A stretch of DNA of 64,000 nucleotides from Klenkia brasiliensis. Its GTDB lineage: Bacteria; Actinomycetota; Actinomycetes; Mycobacteriales; Geodermatophilaceae. The translations under genes and the position numbers were made by a program. The DNA lies in contig NZ_FNCF01000004.1 of assembly GCF_900100695.1 (NCBI RefSeq), positions 1 through 64,000 of the forward strand. The letters run 5' to 3'. The notes beneath the pieces are model-generated. The model ran no database searches, had not been told where the DNA came from, and was given only the letters and a program-made list of their open reading frames with translations. This document shows positions 41,619 through 54,150 of the stretch, piece after piece (position 1 is the stretch's first letter; each line of letters opens with the position of its first letter).

Positions 41619-42599
41619 TCAGTCCTCGCGGCGGGGGTCGATGACCAACCGGACGACGCAGCCGTCGCCGTCGGCCAGCGGCGCGGTGGTCATCCGGTCC
41701 ACCGCCCGGCGGGCCAGCCACAGGCCCATCCCGCCGACCGACAGGTCCTCGCCGTGCGCCGGGCCGTAGCCGGCCAGCGGCTCGTCGAAGCCGTGGCCGC
41801 GGTCGGCCACCGCGCACAGCACCCGCTGCTCGGTGACCCACAGCCGGACGTCGACCGGGGGGACGCCGTGCTCGGCGGCGTTGGCCACCACCTCGTCGAT
41901 GGCCAGCACCAGGTCCTCGGCCTCGTCGGGGTCCAGCGGACCGTCGGCCAGGCTCGTGGTCAGCTCGCGCCGCAGCTGGCGCACGCTGCCCACGTCCTCG
42001 ACCTCCAGGGTCGGCGGGGTGGCCTCCAGCGGGTCGGGCCCGGGCGCCGACCACAGCGACCGCAGCACCTCGGCGGGGTCCTTCTGGCCGGGGTTGGGCA
42101 CCACGCCGTCGGCGGTCAGCGACCACGGGTGGCAGGACAGCGCGCGGTCGGTCTCGGGGCCGAGGTCGCCGGGGTCGATCACGCAGTAGTGCGCCACGGC
42201 CCGGCCGTCCAGCACGTGGTTGAGCAGCGCCTCGGTCTGCAACCACGCCGGGACGCCGAGGGAGGTGCGGCCGCTGTCGGTGACCAGGTGCAGCCGGGTG
42301 CCGCCGACCGTCAGCCGGTCGACCAGCGCCGTGTGCCCGGCGATCGCGTCGGGGGCCCTGCCGCCGAGTTCGTCGGGGTCCACCACGTGCACGCCGTCGG
42401 CGCCGAGCCGGTCCAGCAGCGGACCGCGCAGGCCGGGGGCGCAGGCCAGCACGACGGTGCCGCCGTCGGCCAGACCCTGCTGCAGCCGGGGCGCCAGCAG
42501 CTCGGCCGAGCCCGGGCCCGGGGTGCCCAACTGGGCGACGTGCACGTAGCCCGGAGGGACGGCAGCCGTCGACCCGACGACGTCCGTTGGCTCCGACAC
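41619..42599 (-). CDS. RsbA-like regulator: MEDS sensory domain plus anti-sigma-type ATPase domain
   Basis: 326 residues from GTG 42599 (a GTG at 42653 is possible). The N-terminal MEDS-like domain (about 15-200: YVHVAQLGTPGPGSAELLAPRLQQGL, LDGRAVAHYCVIDPGDLG) is the sensory module first seen in DcmR. The C-terminal HATPase_c domain has EAEDLVLAIDEVVANAAEHG (N box) and DRGHGFDEPLAGYGPAHGEDLSVGGMGLWLARR (G boxes), as in RsbW/RsbA serine kinases of partner-switching systems. No sigma factor or antagonist lies next to it. The PP2C-type bacteriophytochrome 3 kb away could counteract it. Confidence 0.83.
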   Translation of the reverse strand: MSEPTDVVGSTAAVPPGYVHVAQLGTPGPGSAELLAPRLQQGLADGGTVVLACAPGLRGPLLDRLGADGVHVVDPDELGGRAPDAIAGHTALVDRLTVGGTRLHLVTDSGRTSLGVPAWLQTEALLNHVLDGRAVAHYCVIDPGDLGPETDRALSCHPWSLTADGVVPNPGQKDPAEVLRSLWSAPGPDPLEATPPTLEVEDVGSVRQLRRELTTSLADGPLDPDEAEDLVLAIDEVVANAAEHGVPPVDVRLWVTEQRVLCAVADRGHGFDEPLAGYGPAHGEDLSVGGMGLWLARRAVDRMTTAPLADGDGCVVRLVIDPRRED

Positions 42600-42706
42600 G
42601 GCACCCTGGGTGCCCGGGATCCCTGGTCGCACACATGCTGCGTCCGATTGCACACCGGCGGGGCGGTGCGCGGTTCAGCCTCCCCGGCGCCGGGCAGCGG
42701 TCGGGG

Positions 42707-44499: not shown

Positions 44500-44527
44500 G
44501 CGCCGGGCCGCCCGCGTTGGGGCGGGC

Positions 44528-45559
44528 GTGCACGCGGAGGTGGTCGTCGTCGGGGCCGGGCAGGCCGGGCTGTCCGCGGCGTACCAGCTGCGCCGCGAGG
44601 GGACCGACTTCGTCGTGCTGGACGCCGACGCCGCCCCCGGCGGGGCGTGGCAGCACCGGTGGGCCTCGCTGCGGCTGGACCGCGCCAACGGCATCGCCGA
44701 CCTGCCGGGGATGCCGCTGACCGGGGACCCGGCCGAGCGGGCCTCGGTGGCGATGGCCCGGTACTTCGCCGACTACGAGCGCACCTTCGACCTCCCGGTC
44801 CGCCGCCCGGTCGCCGTCCGCCGGGTGACCCGGACCGACGACGGGTTCGCCCTCGCGACGACCGGCGGCACCTGGACCGCCCGGGGCCTGGTCAACGCCA
44901 CCGGTACCTGGTCGCGGCCGTTCTGGCCGGCCTACCCGGGCCGGGACACCTTCCTCGGCCGGCAGCTGCACGCCGCGCAGTTCACCCAGGCCGCCGACTT
45001 CGCCGGCCAGCACGTGCTGGTCGTCGGCGGCGGCATCTCCGCGCTGCAGCTGCTCGTGGAGCTCGCCGAGGTCACCCGGACCACCTGGGTCACCCGCCGG
45101 CCCCCGGTGTGGCGGACCGACGACTTCGACGCCGACGCCGGCCGGGCCGCCGTCGCGCTGGTCGAGCAGCGGGTCCGGGCGGGCCTGCCGCCGGCCAGCG
45201 TGGTCAGCGTGACCGGGCTGCCGGTCACCGAGGAGGTCCGCCGGGCCCGTGCGCGCGGCGTGCTGGAGCGCCGGCCGGCCTTCGACCGGATGACACCGAC
45301 CGGGGTGGCCTGGGACGACCCGGCCGAGGAGCTGGCCGTGGACGTCGTGCTCTGGGCCACCGGGTTCCGGGCGGCGCTGGACCACCTGGCCCCGCTGCAC
45401 CTGCGCGCCCCCGGCGGCGGGGTCGTCGTCGAGGGCACCCGGGTCGTCGCCGAGCCCCGGCTGCACCTGGTCGGCTACGGGCCCTCGGCCAGCACGATCG
45501 GCGCCAACCGGGCCGGCCGGTCGGCGGTCCGCGAGCTGCTGACCACCCTGCGCGGGTGA
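44528..45559 (+). CDS. FAD-dependent monooxygenase (CzcO/FMO type)
   Basis: 343 residues from GTG 44528. FAD motif VVVVGAGQAGLSAAYQL; NADPH motif VLVVGGGISALQLLVELAE; the DAAPGGAWQHRWASLRLDR segment typical of flavin monooxygenases; ATGFRAALDHL near the end. Oxidises an N, S or carbonyl compound with O2 and NADPH. Third of three plus-strand genes (28 bases after the methyltransferase); its end is one base from the bacteriophytochrome gene on the other strand. Confidence 0.85.
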   Translation: MHAEVVVVGAGQAGLSAAYQLRREGTDFVVLDADAAPGGAWQHRWASLRLDRANGIADLPGMPLTGDPAERASVAMARYFADYERTFDLPVRRPVAVRRVTRTDDGFALATTGGTWTARGLVNATGTWSRPFWPAYPGRDTFLGRQLHAAQFTQAADFAGQHVLVVGGGISALQLLVELAEVTRTTWVTRRPPVWRTDDFDADAGRAAVALVEQRVRAGLPPASVVSVTGLPVTEEVRRARARGVLERRPAFDRMTPTGVAWDDPAEELAVDVVLWATGFRAALDHLAPLHLRAPGGGVVVEGTRVVAEPRLHLVGYGPSASTIGANRAGRSAVRELLTTLRG

Positions 45560-45560
45560 C

Positions 45561-47942
45561 CTACCGGTCCGGGCGGGGGCGGTCCTGCTCGTGCAGCCGG
45601 ACGGCGACCAGCGCGACGTCGTCCTCGGCCCGCTCGGGGAGCAGGTCGGCCAGCAGCGTGTCGGCCAGCTGCTCGACCGGCCGGCCGGCCAGCCCGCCCA
45701 GCAGCCGCTGCAGCGCCTCGATGCCCTCGTCGAACACCTGGTCGCGGCGCTCGACGAGGCCGTCGGTGTAGAGCAGCACGGTGGAGCCGCGGTCCAGCAC
45801 GGCCTCGTGCTCCCGCCGCGGCGCGCCCGGGTCGACGCCCAGCAGCAGGTCGGCGCGGCCGCCGTCGCCGAGCAGCCGGGTGCCGCCGTCCTCGGTCAGC
45901 AGCACCGGCGGCAGGTGACCGGCGTTGGACCACACCAGCCGGGTGACGCCCTCGTCGAACTCCGTCGGCGTCTGCTCCAGCCGGGCGACCAGCACCGAGG
46001 CGATGGCCTCCATGCGGAGCCCCGCCACGGCGGCGTCCAGCCGGCGCAGCACCTCGGCCGGGCCGAGGCCGCTGTCGTAGGCGATGCCGCGCAGCAGGCC
46101 GCGCAGCTGGCCCATGACCGCGGCGGCCTCGGTGTCGTGGCCGACCACGTCGCCGATGACCAGCACCGTGGCGCCGTCGGGCTGCACGAACGCGTCGTAC
46201 CAGTCGCCGCCGACCTGCGCCTCGCGGGCGGCGGGCACGTAGCGCACCGCCATCTGCACGTGGTCGGGCTGCGGCGGGTCGGACAGCATGCTGCGCTGCA
46301 GCGTCTCCGCGGCCCGGGCCACCCGGCGGGTGCGGGCGTAGAGGGCCTCGAGCAGGTTGGTGCGCAGCTCGGTGGCCTCGGCGACCTCCGCGGCGGTCCA
46401 GGGCTCGGACCGGCCGTGCACCGTCTCCGACCAGCGCTCGAAGGACTGCCGCGGCGAGATCCGCACGTCGTCGCCCTCGGGGACGACGGTGGCCTTGTGG
46501 TGCGGGTCGCCGCCCCAGTCGATCGAGCGCACCTTCTCCTGCCGCAGCCAGACCACCGACTGGCCCTCGGGCAGCGGGACGACGAGGGCGCCGCAGGCCA
46601 GCTCCACCGGCACGTCGAGCTCGGGGGCGTCGGTCGGCAGCGACTCGCTGGACACCACGTCGACGCGCCGGCCGGCCGCCCACTCGGCGACCTGGGCCGC
46701 CACGGCCTCGGGCACCGGGACCCCGCGGACGGCGGCGTGGCCCTCCAGGTGCACCACCACGCTGTCGGCGGGCACCAGGTCCAGCAGGTCGGGCGTGCCC
46801 AGCAGCGACTCGGCCAGCGGCCGGTCCTGGTCGAGGGTGGCCGCGGTCAGCCAGGCCAGGGTGGAGCGGGCCCGCAGCGCGCGGCGGACCTCCTCCTCGG
46901 CGGCCCGGTCGACCAGCCGCAGCGACAGCGTGGAGCCCAGGAACTCCGCCGCGGCGCGGGTGGCGTAGGGCGGGGCGTGCGGCCCGGCGTAGTGGTGGCA
47001 GGCGATGAGGCCCCACAGCTTGTCCTCGCGCAGCAGCGAGATCGACATGGAGGCGGCCACGCCCATGTTGCCCAGGTACTCGACGTGGATGGGCGAGACG
47101 CTGCGCAGCGTGGAGTAGGTCAGGTCCAGCGGCCGGCCGGTGGCCGGGTGGTCGACCGGCTGCAGCAGGGCGGGGGTGTAGGGCGCCTCGGAGATCAGCC
47201 GGATCCAGTTCTTCTCGTACAGCGCCCGCGCCTGCGCGGGGATGTCCGAGGCGGGGTAGTGCAGGCCCAGGAAGCTGGGCAGCCCGCCGTGCTGGGCCTC
47301 GGCGACGACCTCGCCGTTGTACTCGTCGTCGTAGCGGTAGAGCATCACGCGGTCGAACCCGGTCAGGTTGCGCACCGCGGTGACCGTGACGTCGTAGAGC
47401 TCCTGCAGGTCCGAGGCCCGGTTGAGCTCGGCGATGCTGCTGCGCACGGCCTGGTAGGTGTTCGGGAAGCTGAACGGGCGGGGCCCGAAGGCGGGCTCCA
47501 GCTCGACCACGAGCGTGCTGGCCACCGTGCGGCCCTGCTCGTCGACCCGCTGGTGGGCGTCGTCCAGCCGGCCGCCGCCGTGCACGATGCGGTGCAGGAT
47601 CGCGTCGACCGGCACCGGGGTGCCGTCCAGGTCCAGGGTGAGCTCGACCGGGTTGCGCTCGCGCAGGTCACCGAAGGCGGCCGCGCTGCGGGCCACGGCC
47701 TGCGCGGGCACGGTGCCGATGACCTCGGCCAGCGGCCGGCCCAGCGCCCGCTCCCAGGGCGTGCCGACGACGTCGGCGAGGTTCTCCGAGACCTGCTCGA
47801 CGACCAGGTCGGGCTCGCTGACGGCGATGAGCACGCCGCGGGGCTGGATGCTGCCCGGGATGTGGATGGGCTCGCGCTCGCAGTTGGTCAGGTCCACCGG
47901 CGTACCGGGAGCCAGCCACTGCACGGGCTGGGTGTCGGTCAC
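45561..47942 (-). CDS. bphP: Bacteriophytochrome with PP2C/SpoIIE-type phosphatase output
   Basis: 793 residues from GTG 47942. Photosensory core: PAS with chromophore Cys C21 (LTNCEREPIHIPGSIQPRG), GAF with YPASDIPAQARALY (D233), Y202 and H286 (SVSPIHVEYLGNMGVAAS), H316 in LIACHH, and PHY with the tongue motif PRQSFERW (497-504). A helix (525-552) links to a PP2C domain from about 560: VGGDWYDAF, VIGDVVGHD, LYTDGLVERRD and EDDVALVAV carry the metal Asp residues. This replaces the histidine kinase of classical BphPs. The GTG overlaps the heme oxygenase stop, so chromophore supply is coupled. Red/far-red light should control dephosphorylation of an anti-anti-sigma-like protein, which is not in the window. 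Confidence 0.93.
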   Translation of the reverse strand: MTDTQPVQWLAPGTPVDLTNCEREPIHIPGSIQPRGVLIAVSEPDLVVEQVSENLADVVGTPWERALGRPLAEVIGTVPAQAVARSAAAFGDLRERNPVELTLDLDGTPVPVDAILHRIVHGGGRLDDAHQRVDEQGRTVASTLVVELEPAFGPRPFSFPNTYQAVRSSIAELNRASDLQELYDVTVTAVRNLTGFDRVMLYRYDDEYNGEVVAEAQHGGLPSFLGLHYPASDIPAQARALYEKNWIRLISEAPYTPALLQPVDHPATGRPLDLTYSTLRSVSPIHVEYLGNMGVAASMSISLLREDKLWGLIACHHYAGPHAPPYATRAAAEFLGSTLSLRLVDRAAEEEVRRALRARSTLAWLTAATLDQDRPLAESLLGTPDLLDLVPADSVVVHLEGHAAVRGVPVPEAVAAQVAEWAAGRRVDVVSSESLPTDAPELDVPVELACGALVVPLPEGQSVVWLRQEKVRSIDWGGDPHHKATVVPEGDDVRISPRQSFERWSETVHGRSEPWTAAEVAEATELRTNLLEALYARTRRVARAAETLQRSMLSDPPQPDHVQMAVRYVPAAREAQVGGDWYDAFVQPDGATVLVIGDVVGHDTEAAAVMGQLRGLLRGIAYDSGLGPAEVLRRLDAAVAGLRMEAIASVLVARLEQTPTEFDEGVTRLVWSNAGHLPPVLLTEDGGTRLLGDGGRADLLLGVDPGAPRREHEAVLDRGSTVLLYTDGLVERRDQVFDEGIEALQRLLGGLAGRPVEQLADTLLADLLPERAEDDVALVAVRLHEQDRPRPDR

Positions 47943-48607
47943 GCGGCAGCACCTCGACGTCGAGTCGGCGGGTCGGTCGGGTGGGACGCCCGCTGCTGGA
48001 CGTCGGCGCACCACTGGGCCATCAGGACGAAGGTACGGCGTGCCGCGCCGACGACCACGTCGGCGTCACCCCCGCGGGTCACGTGCTCGCGGGTGGCCCG
48101 GCGGAACGCCGCCCACCGCGCGCCGGTGGCCTCGCCGTACGGGCTGAACGCGCGGACCGGGCCGGCACCGGCCAACCCGGGCAGCGCCGCCAGGTGCCGG
48201 TCGATGAACACCCCGCCCAGGGTGGAGCCCTCGAGCACGTACATCGCGCCCAGCGCCTCGTCGGTGGACGCCGGTGCCGGCACCTCGGGCAGCGGGTCGG
48301 CCGCGGGGACGGCGCCCAGGGCGGCCAGGTCGGCGGCGAACAGGCCCGCCCGCCGCCGGTCGGCCCAGTCCAGGCCCGCGGCGATGGCCGGGTGGGCGGC
48401 GGCCCAGCTGTCCAGGCCCGCCTCGGCGGCCACCCAGAAGGCGTGCATCCGCTGCAGCACCGTCGTCAGGCGGGCCACGGTGAGCCCGTCGTCCATCAGG
48501 TCGAGGGTGTCCTCGAGCTGCTGGTGCTCGGTCGCGGTGGCGGTGCGCAGGCGCCGCATCACGTCGTCGGTGGGGGACTCCCCGTCGGTGCTCGCGTCCC
48601 TCGTCAT
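47939..48607 (-). CDS. bphO: Biliverdin-producing heme oxygenase (BphO type)
   Basis: 222 residues from ATG 48607. H28 (LRTATATEHQQLEDTLDLM) is the heme-ligand His; ALGAMYVLEGSTLGGVFIDRHLAAL is the BphO-type distal helix region (L-E-G-S-x-L-G-G). Opens heme to biliverdin IX alpha, the chromophore of the bacteriophytochrome encoded next. Overlaps bphP downstream (GTGA) and the PucR-type regulator upstream (ATGA), so the three are translationally coupled. Confidence 0.93.
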   Translation of the reverse strand: MTRDASTDGESPTDDVMRRLRTATATEHQQLEDTLDLMDDGLTVARLTTVLQRMHAFWVAAEAGLDSWAAAHPAIAAGLDWADRRRAGLFAADLAALGAVPAADPLPEVPAPASTDEALGAMYVLEGSTLGGVFIDRHLAALPGLAGAGPVRAFSPYGEATGARWAAFRRATREHVTRGGDADVVVGAARRTFVLMAQWCADVQQRASHPTDPPTRRRGAAA

Positions 48608-49740
48608 GAGGCCCTCGACCCTAGAGCAGCCCCGGTGGGGGCGGCAGCCAGCCGGGCCGAGCGGACGGCCAGGTGCAGGGCCAGCCGGTCGCCCCCGTCG
48701 GCGAGGTCCAGGCCGGTGAGCTCGGCGATGCGGCCCAGCCGGTAGTACAGCGTCTGCCGGTGCACGACGAGCTCGGCGGCGGCCCGCTGCGGAGAGGCCG
48801 CCCGGTCCAGCCACACCTCGGCGGTGCGGGTGAGCACCGGGTCGGCCAGCAGCGGGGCGAACGCCGGGTCCGGGCCGTCGAGCCGGACCACCTGGCGCCA
48901 GGCACCGAGCTCGGCCCAGGACGCCACCGGGGCCAGCGCCGGGTCGACCGCGGCCACCCGGGCGGCGTCGGTCGCCTCGGCCCACTGGCGGCGCAGCTCC
49001 CCGCAGCCGGTGCGCGCGGCGGCCACCCCGGCGGTGCTGCCGGCGGGCAGCCGCTGCAGGGCCGCCGCGGACAGCGCGACCGCCGGCCGGGCGTCGCCGC
49101 GGTGCGGCAGCGGGATGAGGACGGCCACCGCGGTGCCCAGGACGGCGGACACCGCACCGGCGCCGGGTGCGGTCCAGCCGGCGGGCAGCCCGGGGTCGGC
49201 GGGGTGCAGCGCGACGACGGCCACCGGGGTGCCCGGGCCCAGTGCCGCGGCCAGCCGGTCGGTCGCCGCGGCGTCGCCGGTGAGCGCGGCGCGCAGGTCG
49301 CCCGCGGGGTCGCCGGCGGCGGGCCGGGTGGCCAGCACCGCGCCCGCCCGGTCGGCGAGCGCCACGGCCTCGGCCAGGCCCGGGGCGTCGGCGGCGTCGA
49401 GGTCGGTGCGGCCCTCGTCGAGCAGCCAGAGCCAGCCGTGCAGCCGGCCGCGGTGGCGCACCGGCAGGCACAGCCGGGTCAGGATCCCGGCCGCCGGGTC
49501 GGCCGGGGTGCGCAGCGGCCCGGTCGCGCGGTCGATGCCGAAGTCGGTGAACCAGCGCCGGGTGGCCGCCGGCGAGCCCCGCGTCAGGATCGAGCGGGTG
49601 CGCACGGCGTCCAGGCCGGTGAGCGCGTCCTCGCCCTGGGCGCAGAAGGCCAGCAGGGTGAAGTCGGGGTCCTCCAGGGTCGCGGGCGCGCCGAGCAGCC
49701 GGGACACCTCGTCCACGATGTCCTGCAGGTCGTCACGCAT
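48604..49740 (-). CDS. PucR/CdaR-type transcriptional regulator
   Basis: 378 residues from ATG 49740. The C-terminal HTH_30 is clear: AEVWLDRAASPQRAAAELVVHRQTLYYRLGRIAELTGLDLADGGDRLALHLAVRSARL. N-terminal GAF-like sensory part with a CdaR-like GGDEF-related middle (LGTAVAVLIPLPHRGDARPAVALSAA). Divergent from the proline genes and similar in position to proline-sensing PucR regulators of actinobacteria, so it probably activates pruBA. It also overlaps bphO, so its own transcript must carry bphO and bphP. TACGAT lies 6 bases before the ATG, a leaderless signature. Confidence 0.88.
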   Translation of the reverse strand: MRDDLQDIVDEVSRLLGAPATLEDPDFTLLAFCAQGEDALTGLDAVRTRSILTRGSPAATRRWFTDFGIDRATGPLRTPADPAAGILTRLCLPVRHRGRLHGWLWLLDEGRTDLDAADAPGLAEAVALADRAGAVLATRPAAGDPAGDLRAALTGDAAATDRLAAALGPGTPVAVVALHPADPGLPAGWTAPGAGAVSAVLGTAVAVLIPLPHRGDARPAVALSAAALQRLPAGSTAGVAAARTGCGELRRQWAEATDAARVAAVDPALAPVASWAELGAWRQVVRLDGPDPAFAPLLADPVLTRTAEVWLDRAASPQRAAAELVVHRQTLYYRLGRIAELTGLDLADGGDRLALHLAVRSARLAAAPTGAALGSRAS

Positions 49741-49746
49741 CAGACG

Positions 49747-49752
49747 ATCGTA
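49747..49752 (-). promoter_or_regulatory. Probable -10 box of leaderless pucR-type gene
   Basis: On the minus strand TACGAT is followed by 6 bases and ATG 49740. This is the only promoter signal I see before the pucR-bphO-bphP unit. Confidence 0.5.
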
Positions 49753-49835
49753 CGAACGACTCCGGACAGCTGTCGCTGGTGACCGCTCCCGCCTCACTCC
49801 TACGGTCGGTGCACCCACTGCTCCTGGAGGTCACC

Positions 49836-50762
49836 GTGCTCGGTCAGGCCCTGCTCGTCGCGTCCCGCCGTCCCGGCCTCCGCCGCGCCGTCGTCGGCAC
49901 CCCGGTCACCCGCCGGGTGGTCGACCGGTTCGTCGCCGGCGAGCAGCTGCCCGACGCGCTGGCCGCCGTCCGGGCGCTGCAGTCCGACGGCATCGCCGTC
50001 ACCCTGGACCATTTGGGCGAGGACATCACCACCCGGGCCGAGGCGGTCGCCTCCCGCGACGCCTACCTGGCCCTGCTCGAGGGGCTGGCCCCGCTGCAGC
50101 TGGGCCCGGCCGCCGAGGTGTCGGTCAAGCTGTCGGCGTTCGGGCAGGCCCTGCCCGGCGGGCACGACACCGCCCTGGAACTGGTCCGCCCGGTCGCCGA
50201 GGCCGCCACCGCGCAGGGCACCACGGTGACCCTGGACATGGAGGACCACACCACGGTCGACTCCACCCTCGCGGTGCTGGCCGAGCTGCGCCGCGACCAC
50301 CCGGGCACCGGTGCCGTGCTGCAGTCGGCGCTGCACCGCACCGAGGCCGACGCCGCTGCCCTGGCCGTCGCCGGGTCCCGGGTGCGGCTGGTCAAGGGCG
50401 CCTACGCCGAGCCGCGCACCGTGGCCTTCACCGACAAGGCCGAGGTGGACGCCGCCTACCGCCGCTGCCTGGACGTGCTCTTCCGGGGCGACGGCTACCC
50501 GATGGCCGGCACGCACGACCCCGCGATGATCGCCCGGGTGCTGGAGCTCGTCGCCGAGACCGGCCGGTCGGCCGACAGCTACGAGTTCCAGCTGCTCTAC
50601 GGCATCCGCACCGGCGAGCAGCAGCGGCTGGCCCGCGAGGGGCACACCGTGCGGGCCTACGTGCCCTACGGCGCCGACTGGTACGGCTACTTCATGCGCC
50701 GCCTGGCCGAGCGCCCGGCCAACCTGCAGTTCTTCCTCCGCTCCCTCGTCACCACCTCCTGA
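49836..50762 (+). CDS. pruB: Proline dehydrogenase
   Basis: 308 residues from GTG 49836. Oxidises proline to pyrroline-5-carboxylate with FAD. The start VLGQALLVASRRPGLRRAVVGTPVTRRVVDRFVAG matches actinobacterial ProDH; CTGGAGG lies 6 bases before it. An in-frame GTG at 49779 is less likely, and TACGGT at 49801-49806 looks like the -10 box about 28 bases upstream of this start. Core motifs: TLDHLGED, VSVKLSAFG, RLVKGAYAEP and YEFQLLYGIR. The P5C dehydrogenase follows after 16 bases. Confidence 0.92.
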   Translation: MLGQALLVASRRPGLRRAVVGTPVTRRVVDRFVAGEQLPDALAAVRALQSDGIAVTLDHLGEDITTRAEAVASRDAYLALLEGLAPLQLGPAAEVSVKLSAFGQALPGGHDTALELVRPVAEAATAQGTTVTLDMEDHTTVDSTLAVLAELRRDHPGTGAVLQSALHRTEADAAALAVAGSRVRLVKGAYAEPRTVAFTDKAEVDAAYRRCLDVLFRGDGYPMAGTHDPAMIARVLELVAETGRSADSYEFQLLYGIRTGEQQRLAREGHTVRAYVPYGADWYGYFMRRLAERPANLQFFLRSLVTTS

Positions 50763-50778: not shown

Positions 50779-52391
<1,613 letters not shown>

Positions 52392-52404
<13 letters not shown>

Positions 52405-52931
52405 CGCTCCGCCCGGAGCTCGGCCAGCAGGGCGTCCACCGTCTGCTGCGCCGAGCCCTGGCCGGAGTACGCGTGGCCGGGCTCGTCGTCGCCCAGCGGC
52501 TCGAGGGTGGCGAGCTGGCTGTCCAGCAGCGAGCCCGGCATGTAGTGGCCCCGCCGCCTGCGCAGCCGCTCGACCAGCACCTCGTGCGGGGTGTCGACGT
52601 GGGCGAACCAGACCGACGGGTGGCCCTCGACCAGCAGGTCCCGGTAGGACCGCTTCAGCGCCGAGCAGGTGATCACCAGGTCGGTGCCGGCGGCCTCGTG
52701 CTCGCCGACCCGGGCGGCGACCGCGCGCAGCCAGGGCCAGCGGTCGTCGTCGTCCAGCGGGGTGCCCGAGCGCATCTTCTCGACGTTGGCCGGCGGGTGC
52801 AGGTCGTCGCCCTCGACGAAGTCGCAGCCCAGCGCCCGCGCGATGCCCACCCCCACCGTGGACTTGCCGGTGCCCGACACGCCCATCACGACGACGGAGA
52901 CGGTGGTCGGCGGGGCATCGGGATCGGCCAT
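52392..52931 (-). CDS. gntK: Gluconokinase
   Basis: 179 residues from ATG 52931. P-loop GVSGTGKST (17-25); GDDLHPPANVEKMRSGTPLDDDDRWPWL is the gluconate pocket, and ITCSALKRSYRDLL and RRRGHYMPGSLLDSQLATLE are family marks. Makes 6-phosphogluconate, which Gnd (12621) can oxidise. A leaderless signature (TACGGT, 6 bases before ATG) is on this strand. The frame is open further upstream but not related. Confidence 0.95.
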
Positions 52932-52937
52932 GGCCCG

Positions 52938-52943
52938 ACCGTA
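52938..52943 (-). promoter_or_regulatory. Probable -10 box of leaderless gntK
   Basis: On the minus strand TACGGT is followed by 6 bases and ATG 52931. Confidence 0.5.
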
Positions 52944-52971
52944 TCGGCGGCAGGGCAGGATCGCGGGGGCG

Positions 52972-54150
52972 ATGGACGGGGTGGCGGAGCAGGAGACGGG
53001 GCAGCAGACGGGTCGGGGGACGGGGCCGGTGTGGCGGGTCCCCGCCGTCCGGGCGCTGCTGGCGGCGTCCCTGCTGGGGTTCACCAGCTACGCGGTGACG
53101 CTGGCCGCGCTGCCCTCCTACGCCGTCCGCGGGGGAGCAGGCGTGGCGGCCGCCGGCCTGGTGACCACCGTCTTCCTCGCCGCCACGGTGCTCACCCAGC
53201 TCGCGGTGCCCCGGCTGGTCGGCCGGGTCGGGCTGGGTCCGGTGCTGGCCGGCGGGCTGCTGGCCATCGGCGGGCCCGCGCCGCTGTACCTGCTCGGGGA
53301 CGGCGTCGGGTGGCTGTGCGCGGTGTCGGCGGTGCGCGGCACCGGCTTCGGCGTGCTGACCGTGCTGGGCGCCACCATCGCCGCCCGGGTGGTGCCGCCG
53401 TCCCGCCGCGGGGAGTCCCTGGGCCTCTACGGCCTGGCGCTGGGGCTGCCCACGCTGGCCGCGACGCCGGGCGGGGTGGCGCTGGTGCTCTCCGACCGGT
53501 TCCCGCTGGTGGTGGCCGTGGCCACGCTGCCGCTGCTGGGCCTGCTGGCGGTGCCCCGGCTGGTGCGGGCGGTGCCCCGCGCCGTGACCGCCCCGTCCGG
53601 GGACCCGGCGGGGCCGGCGGTGCGCGCGGCGGCCCCGCCGTCGGCGGTGCTGCTCGTGGTCACCCTCGCCGGCGCCGGGGTGGTCACCTTCCTGCCGATC
53701 GCCCGGCCGGACGGCGTCGTGGCCACCGTCGCGCTGCTGGTGTTCGGTGCCACCGGGGCGCTGTGCCGCTGGGCCGGCGGCGTGCTCACCGACCGGTACG
53801 GCACCCGGGTGCTGCTGCCGGCCGCCCTGCTGCTCGGCGTGCTGGGGCTGGTGCTGCTCGCGGTCGGGCTGGACGCCGACGCCGCGGTGTACGCCGGGGC
53901 CGCGGTCTTCGGGGTCGCCTACGGCGGGTCGCAGAACACCACGCTGGTGGTGGCGATGGCCCGGGCGGGGGAGCGGGGCACGACGACGGCCAGCGCGGTC
54001 TGGAACGCCGCCTTCGACGCCGGCACCGGGCTCGGGGCGCTCGCGGTCGGGGTGGTCGCGGCCGCGGTGGGGCTGGAGCTGTCCTACGCCGTGCTGGCCG
54101 GGCTGCTCGTGCTGGTGCTGCCGGTGGCGGTGCGGGTCACCCGTCGCTGA
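52972..54150 (+). CDS. MFS transporter
   Basis: 392 residues from ATG 52972, about twelve helices with a central loop (SGDPAGPAVRAAAPP). RGTGFGVLTVLGATIAARVVPPSRRGESLGLYGLALGL is the MFS helix 4-5 region, and GGVLTDRYGTRVLLP is the second-half G-x-x-x-D-R-x-G-x-R loop. Resembles drug or sugar efflux MFS proteins. Divergent from gntK with 40 bases between; a role in gluconate is not supported, since these are not GntP-type. Confidence 0.83.
   Translation: MDGVAEQETGQQTGRGTGPVWRVPAVRALLAASLLGFTSYAVTLAALPSYAVRGGAGVAAAGLVTTVFLAATVLTQLAVPRLVGRVGLGPVLAGGLLAIGGPAPLYLLGDGVGWLCAVSAVRGTGFGVLTVLGATIAARVVPPSRRGESLGLYGLALGLPTLAATPGGVALVLSDRFPLVVAVATLPLLGLLAVPRLVRAVPRAVTAPSGDPAGPAVRAAAPPSAVLLVVTLAGAGVVTFLPIARPDGVVATVALLVFGATGALCRWAGGVLTDRYGTRVLLPAALLLGVLGLVLLAVGLDADAAVYAGAAVFGVAYGGSQNTTLVVAMARAGERGTTTASAVWNAAFDAGTGLGALAVGVVAAAVGLELSYAVLAGLLVLVLPVAVRVTRR

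Follow-up and report, generated by a model that had tools for sequence, protein, structure and literature searches.

The locus and its genes

This study concerns the first 64,000 nucleotides of contig NZ_FNCF01000004.1 of the soil bacterium Klenkia brasiliensis (Geodermatophilaceae; GCF_900100695.1), the stretch called the window below, and in it three closely packed genes that code for a PucR-like regulator, a heme oxygenase (BphO) and a bacteriophytochrome (BphP1, from bphP1, or simply bphP). An earlier note on this DNA had described them as minus-strand genes that overlap by four bases each, the regulator facing genes of proline catabolism, and the coordinates bear out both statements. The stop of pucR and the start of bphO share ATGA (48607-48604, 4 nt), the stop of bphO and the start of bphP share GTGA (47942-47939, 4 nt), and proline dehydrogenase (ProDH, from 49779 on the plus strand), followed by P5C dehydrogenase (P5CDH, from 50779, plus), diverges from pucR, with 38 bp separating the two start codons. 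The pucR/bphO overlap hinges on the ATG at 48607, because bphO has later in-frame starts at 48562 and 48559. The genes of the phytochrome block and the parts of BphP1 are as follows.

45561..47942, minus strand: bphP1 (bphP), bacteriophytochrome with SpoIIE/PP2C phosphatase output, 793 residues, GTG start
47880..47882, minus strand: codon for C21, in TNCEREPIHIPGSIQPRG, the presumed biliverdin-binding cysteine (role by analogy with C17 of PadC, as given in passages of PMC9587094)
46332..46835, minus strand: PHY domain of BphP1, with the tongue PRQSF at 46454-46440
46194..46439, minus strand: tongue-to-GGDWYD connector of BphP1, the fixed-length PRxSF-to-GGDWYD spacing
45594..46181, minus strand: SpoIIE/PP2C phosphatase domain of BphP1 (PF07228, 5.5e-41; Rv1364c phosphatase, 2.4e-22)
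47939..48607, minus strand: bphO, HemO/PigA-type heme oxygenase, 222 residues
48604..49740, minus strand: pucR-like regulator, 378 residues (HTH_30, 5.5e-20)

A bacteriophytochrome fused to a phosphatase

BphP1 is a PAS-GAF-PHY bacteriophytochrome fused to a PP2C domain of the SpoIIE/RsbU class, which confirms what the earlier note had read from the letters: a complete chromophore site joined to a PP2C/SpoIIE phosphatase. Pfam places PAS_2 at residues 21-119, GAF at 178-337, PHY at 370-537 and SpoIIE at 588-783. All the chromophore motifs are there (C21, PASDIP 230-235, H286, H316, PRQSF 497-501), as are those of the PP2C metal site (GGDWYD, GDVVGHD, YTDGLVE, EDDVAL), with roles in part taken over from what holds for these families in general. 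Passages of PMC9587094 name the Cys, DIP and PRXSF as bacteriophytochrome motifs. Residues 15-538 align with solved bacteriophytochromes (PDB 6bap, 1.5e-111), while the sole solved relative of the phosphatase part at E 0.001 is Rv1364c (3ke6, 2.4e-22), a partner-switching protein. The NCBIfam BphP equivalog NF041576 matched sensor residues 14-532 only, under its cut-off (308 vs 1040 bits). Among full-length bphP1 products of relatives, seven of nine motif patterns occur in every sequence, and the strict PASDIP pattern is missed in several sequences of genus g9.

BphO passes the Pfam heme oxygenase cut-off (30.7 bits vs 23) and resembles HemO (1j77, 1.3e-5); no NCBIfam model matched it. Its candidate proximal histidine is His28 (codon 48526-48524), assigned by analogy with the family. 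At E <= 0.001 the whole Klenkia genome gives one match to PHY (PF00360), which is BphP1, and one to heme oxygenase (PF01126), which is BphO. With a member of that family encoded beside bphP, the supply of biliverdin by BphO, already suggested in the earlier note, finds support. Of the regulator, Pfam matches the C-terminal PucR helix-turn-helix (HTH) only; its solved relative 3onq is weak (0.0018) and NCBIfam matches fall far under their cut-offs.

The segment between sensor and phosphatase is of nearly constant length. We collected 140 BphP-SpoIIE proteins, and in 137 of the 138 that have both motifs PRxSF and GGDWYD stand 81 residues apart (82 in the other one). Other spacings vary, with 25 lengths between C and SDIP, 10 between ACHH and PRxSF, 14 between GGDWYD and DGLxE and 4 between DGLxE and DDxAL; within GAF, two spacings vary as little as the linker does (2 lengths and 1 length). 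The fixed 81 residues suggest a single rotational register from sensor to phosphatase. A quick tree was made from 83 of these 140 sequences, with SH-aLRT support only; in it bphP1 (20 sequences) forms one clade beside a mycobacterial clade (support 98), apart from a second paralogue of the family, bphP2; the latter and L162, from a distant genome, sit on long branches.

Conservation of the block in Geodermatophilaceae

A search of 112 genomes of the family gave a bphP1 orthologue in 76, the window not counted; in G104 it is broken by a stop. One locus was kept per genome, its neighbours being mapped by tblastn, and five loci with less than 3 kb upstream (G080, G008, G030, G031, G104) were set aside, leaving 71 that can be assessed. 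P5CDH-ProDH, pucR, bphO and bphP stand all together in 52 of these; eight are without pucR, six without bphO, and five have bphO-bphP alone. Thus counted, P5CDH-ProDH adjoin the phytochrome block in 66 of 71 relatives, over eight genera, and bphO adjoins bphP1 in 65, a recurrence through the family that speaks against a chance arrangement of bphO and bphP. All six loci lacking bphO belong to genus g9 (Modestobacter: L045, L047, L074, L075, L210, L216) and could go back to a single event in one lineage. A PF01126 search of 14 genomes found in each of these six another heme oxygenase, of canonical type (193-199 bits), away from the locus; the other eight gave none of that canonical class, two of them returning bphO itself, weakly.

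In the 53 loci collected outside the family no ProDH matched within the flanks examined, and bphO matched in two (Frankia-type). The outer neighbours in the window are a flavoprotein (44516-45559), a P-loop kinase (52392-52934) and, also beyond P5CDH, a transporter (52669-54150); the flavoprotein, the P-loop kinase and a MEDS gene considered below lie near bphP1 only in some genera. A recent horizontal arrival of the block finds no support, the block being spread over eight genera and bphP1 forming one clade beside the mycobacterial one. Two side observations concern the genomes themselves. G090 has two bphP1-like copies (C44, C63, C64), the second split across two contigs, and the labels of L131 (Bacillus sp. 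AZ43, marked unverified) and L144 (Sphaerisporangium cinnabarinum) look wrong, as these records carry genes that resemble closely those of Blastococcus and Cellulosimicrobium.

Two probable abutting units

The spacer between pucR and the proline genes, and the end of pucR, hold putative elements of transcription.

48618..48623, minus strand: TAGGGT, within the 3' end of pucR; -10-like element of a putative promoter for bphO-bphP
49743..49754, minus strand: box B, CGTACGATCGTC, putative PucR operator directly before the pucR ATG, overlapping a TACGAT -10-like hexamer (49752-49747)
49765..49774, no strand: box A, palindrome GACAGCTGTC, putative PucR operator adjoining the ProDH start
49779..50762, plus strand: proline dehydrogenase, ProDH (PF01619, 1.5e-33; NF045947, 250.7 bits, under the cut-off of 500)
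50779..52404, plus strand: P5C (glutamate semialdehyde) dehydrogenase, P5CDH (TIGR01236, 792 bits, cut-off 613.6)

The explanation of the whole that we favour, and hold to be probable, is that a proline divergon and a separate light-phosphatase unit abut here. The first unit would be ProDH-P5CDH with the divergent PucR-type regulator, which would bind the two palindromes of the 38-bp spacer. The second would be bphO-bphP, tightly coupled and read from its own -10-like element in the end of pucR. To judge from these sequences, a single operon is less likely than this pair of units.

The motif [CT]TANNNT occurs within a 95-nt stretch upstream of bphO in 75 of 78 genomes, the window included (misses: G107, G020, G066). 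By comparison, it occurs in 50 of 15,062 segments placed at random in these loci, and in 0.8% of random segments of the minus strand of the window, where 64 kb hold six sites, one of them at 48624. On sequence grounds these boxes lean towards a promoter of bphO-bphP separate from that of the regulator, an outcome that the earlier note had itself counted against its proposal. The putative operators follow pucR: boxes A and B are found together in 62 of 64 ProDH spacers of genomes with pucR (box B alone in the remaining two) and in none of 11 genomes without it, two of which show a box-A-like match. In the window GACAGNTGTC (box A) has a single exact copy, at 49765..49774.

The strongest of the rival explanations makes pucR-bphO-bphP one operon, in which PucR autoregulates the set and the quantity of light sensor depends on proline or nitrogen status; we give it perhaps one chance for every three against. 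It draws on the 4-nt overlaps at both junctions of the window and on the full block in most of the relatives, but the junctions differ when followed through the family (counts from candidate-start lists, some rows being unresolved). The candidate starts allow bphO and bphP a -4 junction in 58 of the 70 relatives that have bphO; for pucR and bphO they allow one in 18 of the 56 with both genes, a number that still counts for the operon. Against it, seven genomes of genus g4 (Geodermatophilus) have approximately 1.1-1.3 kb between pucR and bphO, with two open reading frames there in the 2 examined. No pucR orthologue was found genome-wide in 13 genomes of the family that keep bphO-bphP (in 10 of the 13 there were weak matches alone, 43 bits at most), PucR-type boxes lie near bphO in 1 of 56 genomes, leaving 55 without, and bphO has the -10-like element of its own. 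The earlier idea that chromophore synthesis is tied to the regulator is accordingly weakened by the loss of pucR, by loose or interrupted junctions, by the siting of the palindromes in the ProDH spacer and by that element. As a separate observation, a TetR-like gene (by eye) lies between pucR or ProDH and bphO in L055, L238 and L245, of Geodermatophilus-type genomes, with a further open reading frame beside it in L055 and L238.

Proline and light

A second rival takes the neighbourhood itself as meaningful: light sensing and proline catabolism would be coupled, either because ProDH-P5CDH expression answers to the phosphatase pathway or because proline turnover aids the light response, and selection would have kept them adjacent. 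We find this unlikely. In its favour, adjacency is kept in nearly all assessable relatives over eight genera, where outer neighbours persist only in some, and it is also kept in the eight genomes without pucR. This last fact leads us to reject PucR as a sufficient cause of the proline-phytochrome adjacency, which outlives the loss of the regulator.

Against coupling stand the genomes where the parts have come apart; outside the family, the flanks examined at 53 loci gave no ProDH match. ProDH was searched in 13 genomes at E <= 1e-20, a threshold under which a more distant ProDH could fall. Among the five with bphO-bphP alone, G110, G003 and G017 gave no match at that threshold, G006 has a 50% match and G016 an orthologue elsewhere. 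In G003, G016 and G110 an opposite-strand transporter at most 2.5 kb upstream of bphP resembles, by eye, that of the window at 52669-54150, which looks like the outcome of a deletion of the proline block. The opposite loss is seen among the genomes without bphP1, of which the family has 35; eight of them entered the search. Seven match ProDH, all with bphO beside it and five also with pucR; G001 gave no match at E <= 1e-20. Remnants of bphP1 follow bphO in two of the seven (residues 610-728 in L281, residues 758-788 in L286). A heme oxygenase left behind in this way can presumably serve the second phytochrome that these genomes have.

The simplest history consistent with these sequences has an ancestral order P5CDH-ProDH / pucR-bphO-bphP1, of which single parts were lost several times. 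The proline link would then be old, going back to an early ancestor of the family, but weak, and it looks separable, neither side being seen to need the other. What stands of the link between proline status and light proposed in the earlier note is thus a gene order inside one family (66/71); the parts lost singly speak against a dependence of either side on the other.

A probable partner-switching phosphatase

Under the two-unit explanation BphO would turn heme into biliverdin, which BphP1 would bind at C21. Red or far-red light, with a sign that could go either way, would alter the PHY tongue; the change would travel via the fixed-length helical connector to PP2C domains, probably dimeric, and set their phosphatase activity. 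The substrate would most likely be a phosphorylated STAS anti-anti-sigma protein, encoded elsewhere in the Klenkia genome, and once dephosphorylated this protein would take an RsbW-type kinase off a sigma factor.

Partners were sought with RsbW and STAS profiles built from proteins of the Klenkia genome and run over the collected loci, a gene being counted when within 1.5 kb. Both are found in 9 of 10 loci of bphP2 (L061-L070, a sample of the 54 rows of 42-46% identity found in the family search), the tenth having STAS only, in 13 of 29 Micrococcales loci, in 3 of 21 mycobacterial loci and in 0 of 2 of Frankia type. Seven of the 13 positive Micrococcales loci are Cellulosimicrobium-type, six being near-copies. 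Farther from the Micrococcales and mycobacterial loci, 754 kb hold 2 STAS matches. L162, outside the group counts, has both genes near its BphP-SpoIIE gene. Pfam confirms STAS in L062, L109, L140 and L147 (4/4 tested) and HATPase_c_2 (RsbW) in L062, L109 and L147 (3/4 tested; the open reading frame tested in L140 was out of frame). The paralogue bphP2, 39-46% identical to bphP1, shows a regular layout of its own, with STAS directly upstream in 10/10 and a divergent RsbW adjoining in 9/10.

Several facts weigh against the explanation we prefer. Not one of 76 bphP1 relatives has STAS or RsbW within 1.5 kb, and neither gene was found in 15 of 29 Micrococcales and 15 of 21 mycobacterial loci. In the Klenkia genome two STAS models match 9 times each, in sets that overlap, HATPase_c_2 matches 24 times and there are 12 SpoIIE domains, copies so many that no pairing can be read from their number. 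The -10-like box of Klenkia overlaps the coding sequence of pucR, and read-through from pucR into bphO-bphP is possible in the window. The promoter motif and the PucR boxes were first spotted by eye, and the counts come from those very sequences, which makes them descriptions and not blind tests, and related genomes do not provide independent counts. Structure prediction of BphP1 from ten sequences was poor (mean pLDDT 59.8, pTM 0.36) and was not used.

The empty neighbourhood of bphP1 counts for a third rival, in which the phosphatase acts on a target other than STAS, for example one phosphorylated on Ser/Thr by another kinase; many RsbW-like genes of actinobacteria are orphans, which also counts for it. 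It seems to us improbable, given a SpoIIE-class domain whose nearest solved relative is Rv1364c, and sister and more distant BphP-SpoIIE clades that include loci beside STAS and RsbW. A partner-switching STAS protein is, on these sequence grounds, the most likely target of BphP1. The pathway named in the earlier note, which looked to RsbV/RsbW genes near homologues, therefore keeps its footing beside many relatives and in the likeness to Rv1364c, and loses it at the bphP1 and Frankia-type loci. That BphP1 serves in redox or as a scaffold and is not controlled by light we consider very improbable: chromophore motifs are kept in nearly all orthologues examined and a heme oxygenase is kept beside bphP1 or present elsewhere.

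The nearest candidate for a partner kinase in the window is the following.

41619..42653, minus strand: MEDS + RsbW-like ATPase (PF13581, 2.1e-18; MEDS under cut-off)

It lies 3 kb downstream, on the strand of bphP, and is found near bphP1, among the loci examined, only in genera g1 (that of the window, which includes Klenkia), g5 and g9; we regard it as a weak candidate because the loci of these genera also keep other outer neighbours. Elsewhere in the genome, the PP2C relatives nearest BphP1 are six proteins (55-63% identity), most of which carry PAS and GAF sensors. In the stretches examined around SpoIIE genes, an RsbW-like gene lies within 0.5 kb of one of them (L292), and STAS occurs in none of the stretches.

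Three SpoIIE proteins of the genome with PAS_9 carry the motifs GANCRFLQ, GRNCKFLQ and GRNCSFLQ; these PAS_9/GAF-SpoIIE proteins with GxNC(R/K/S)FLQ are encoded at L295:1994-4477, L296:3946-6369 and L297:2765-4522. We take the motif to be the flavin-cysteine signature of LOV domains, and by sequence four of the 12 SpoIIE phosphatases of Klenkia may then be light sensors. A rather speculative extension is a colour-reading stress switch in Geodermatophilaceae, where one BphP and three LOV-like (presumably blue-light) SpoIIE phosphatases would compete for a shared STAS set, the red branch, through its ancestral place beside ProDH-P5CDH, tying light to the turnover of proline as an osmolyte in sun-exposed, drying soils or stones.

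Comparison with known systems

The phytochrome-phosphatase architecture is not new: the legend of Fig. 2, among the passages of PMC9587094, lists SpoIIE/PPM as a class of bacteriophytochrome effectors. In the open-licence literature no work on what these fusions do was found among the matches listed, nor anything on a bacteriophytochrome together with proline dehydrogenase, and passages of PMC10979010 and PMC7522486 hold nothing on phytochrome-phosphatase fusions. The loci of bphP2 and of Cellulosimicrobium type point by adjacency to STAS/RsbW partners, which makes the function of the fusion testable. If confirmed, red light would become a further input to the stress network of actinobacteria, and a Ser/Thr phosphatase controlled by red light could be used as a tool.

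In BphO-BphP operons elsewhere, for example in Deinococcus, a heme oxygenase likewise adjoins the phytochrome, whose output is a histidine kinase and not, as here, PP2C. PucR-type regulators beside genes of proline catabolism are known as PutR of Bacillus and PruC of mycobacteria. They share with our locus a PucR-type HTH next to ProDH, and differ in that here bphO-bphP follow the regulator. The SpoIIE/PPM bacteriophytochromes of PMC9587094 have the same PAS-GAF-PHY sensor fused to a phosphatase, but these passages give for them no neighbourhood, heme oxygenase, STAS/RsbW, proline genes or function. The stress phosphatases RsbU and RsbP (in passages of PMC12143880 and PMC3019169) also begin with a sensor, which a helical linker joins to a PPM domain, and have an expected STAS substrate; the sensor is here a biliverdin phytochrome. 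Phosphatases of RsbU type are described as activated via dimeric crossing linkers (in part of PMC12143880), the docking of RsbU/SpoIIE substrates is treated in PMC11418112, and red light activates SigB through RsbP/Q in Bacillus (as cited in a passage of PMC3019169). PadC, a phytochrome-activated diguanylate cyclase, shares the sensor motifs and a coiled-coil linker that carries the signal; its output differs, and its linkers come, according to passages of PMC9587094, in several lengths, against essentially one in the phosphatase fusions.

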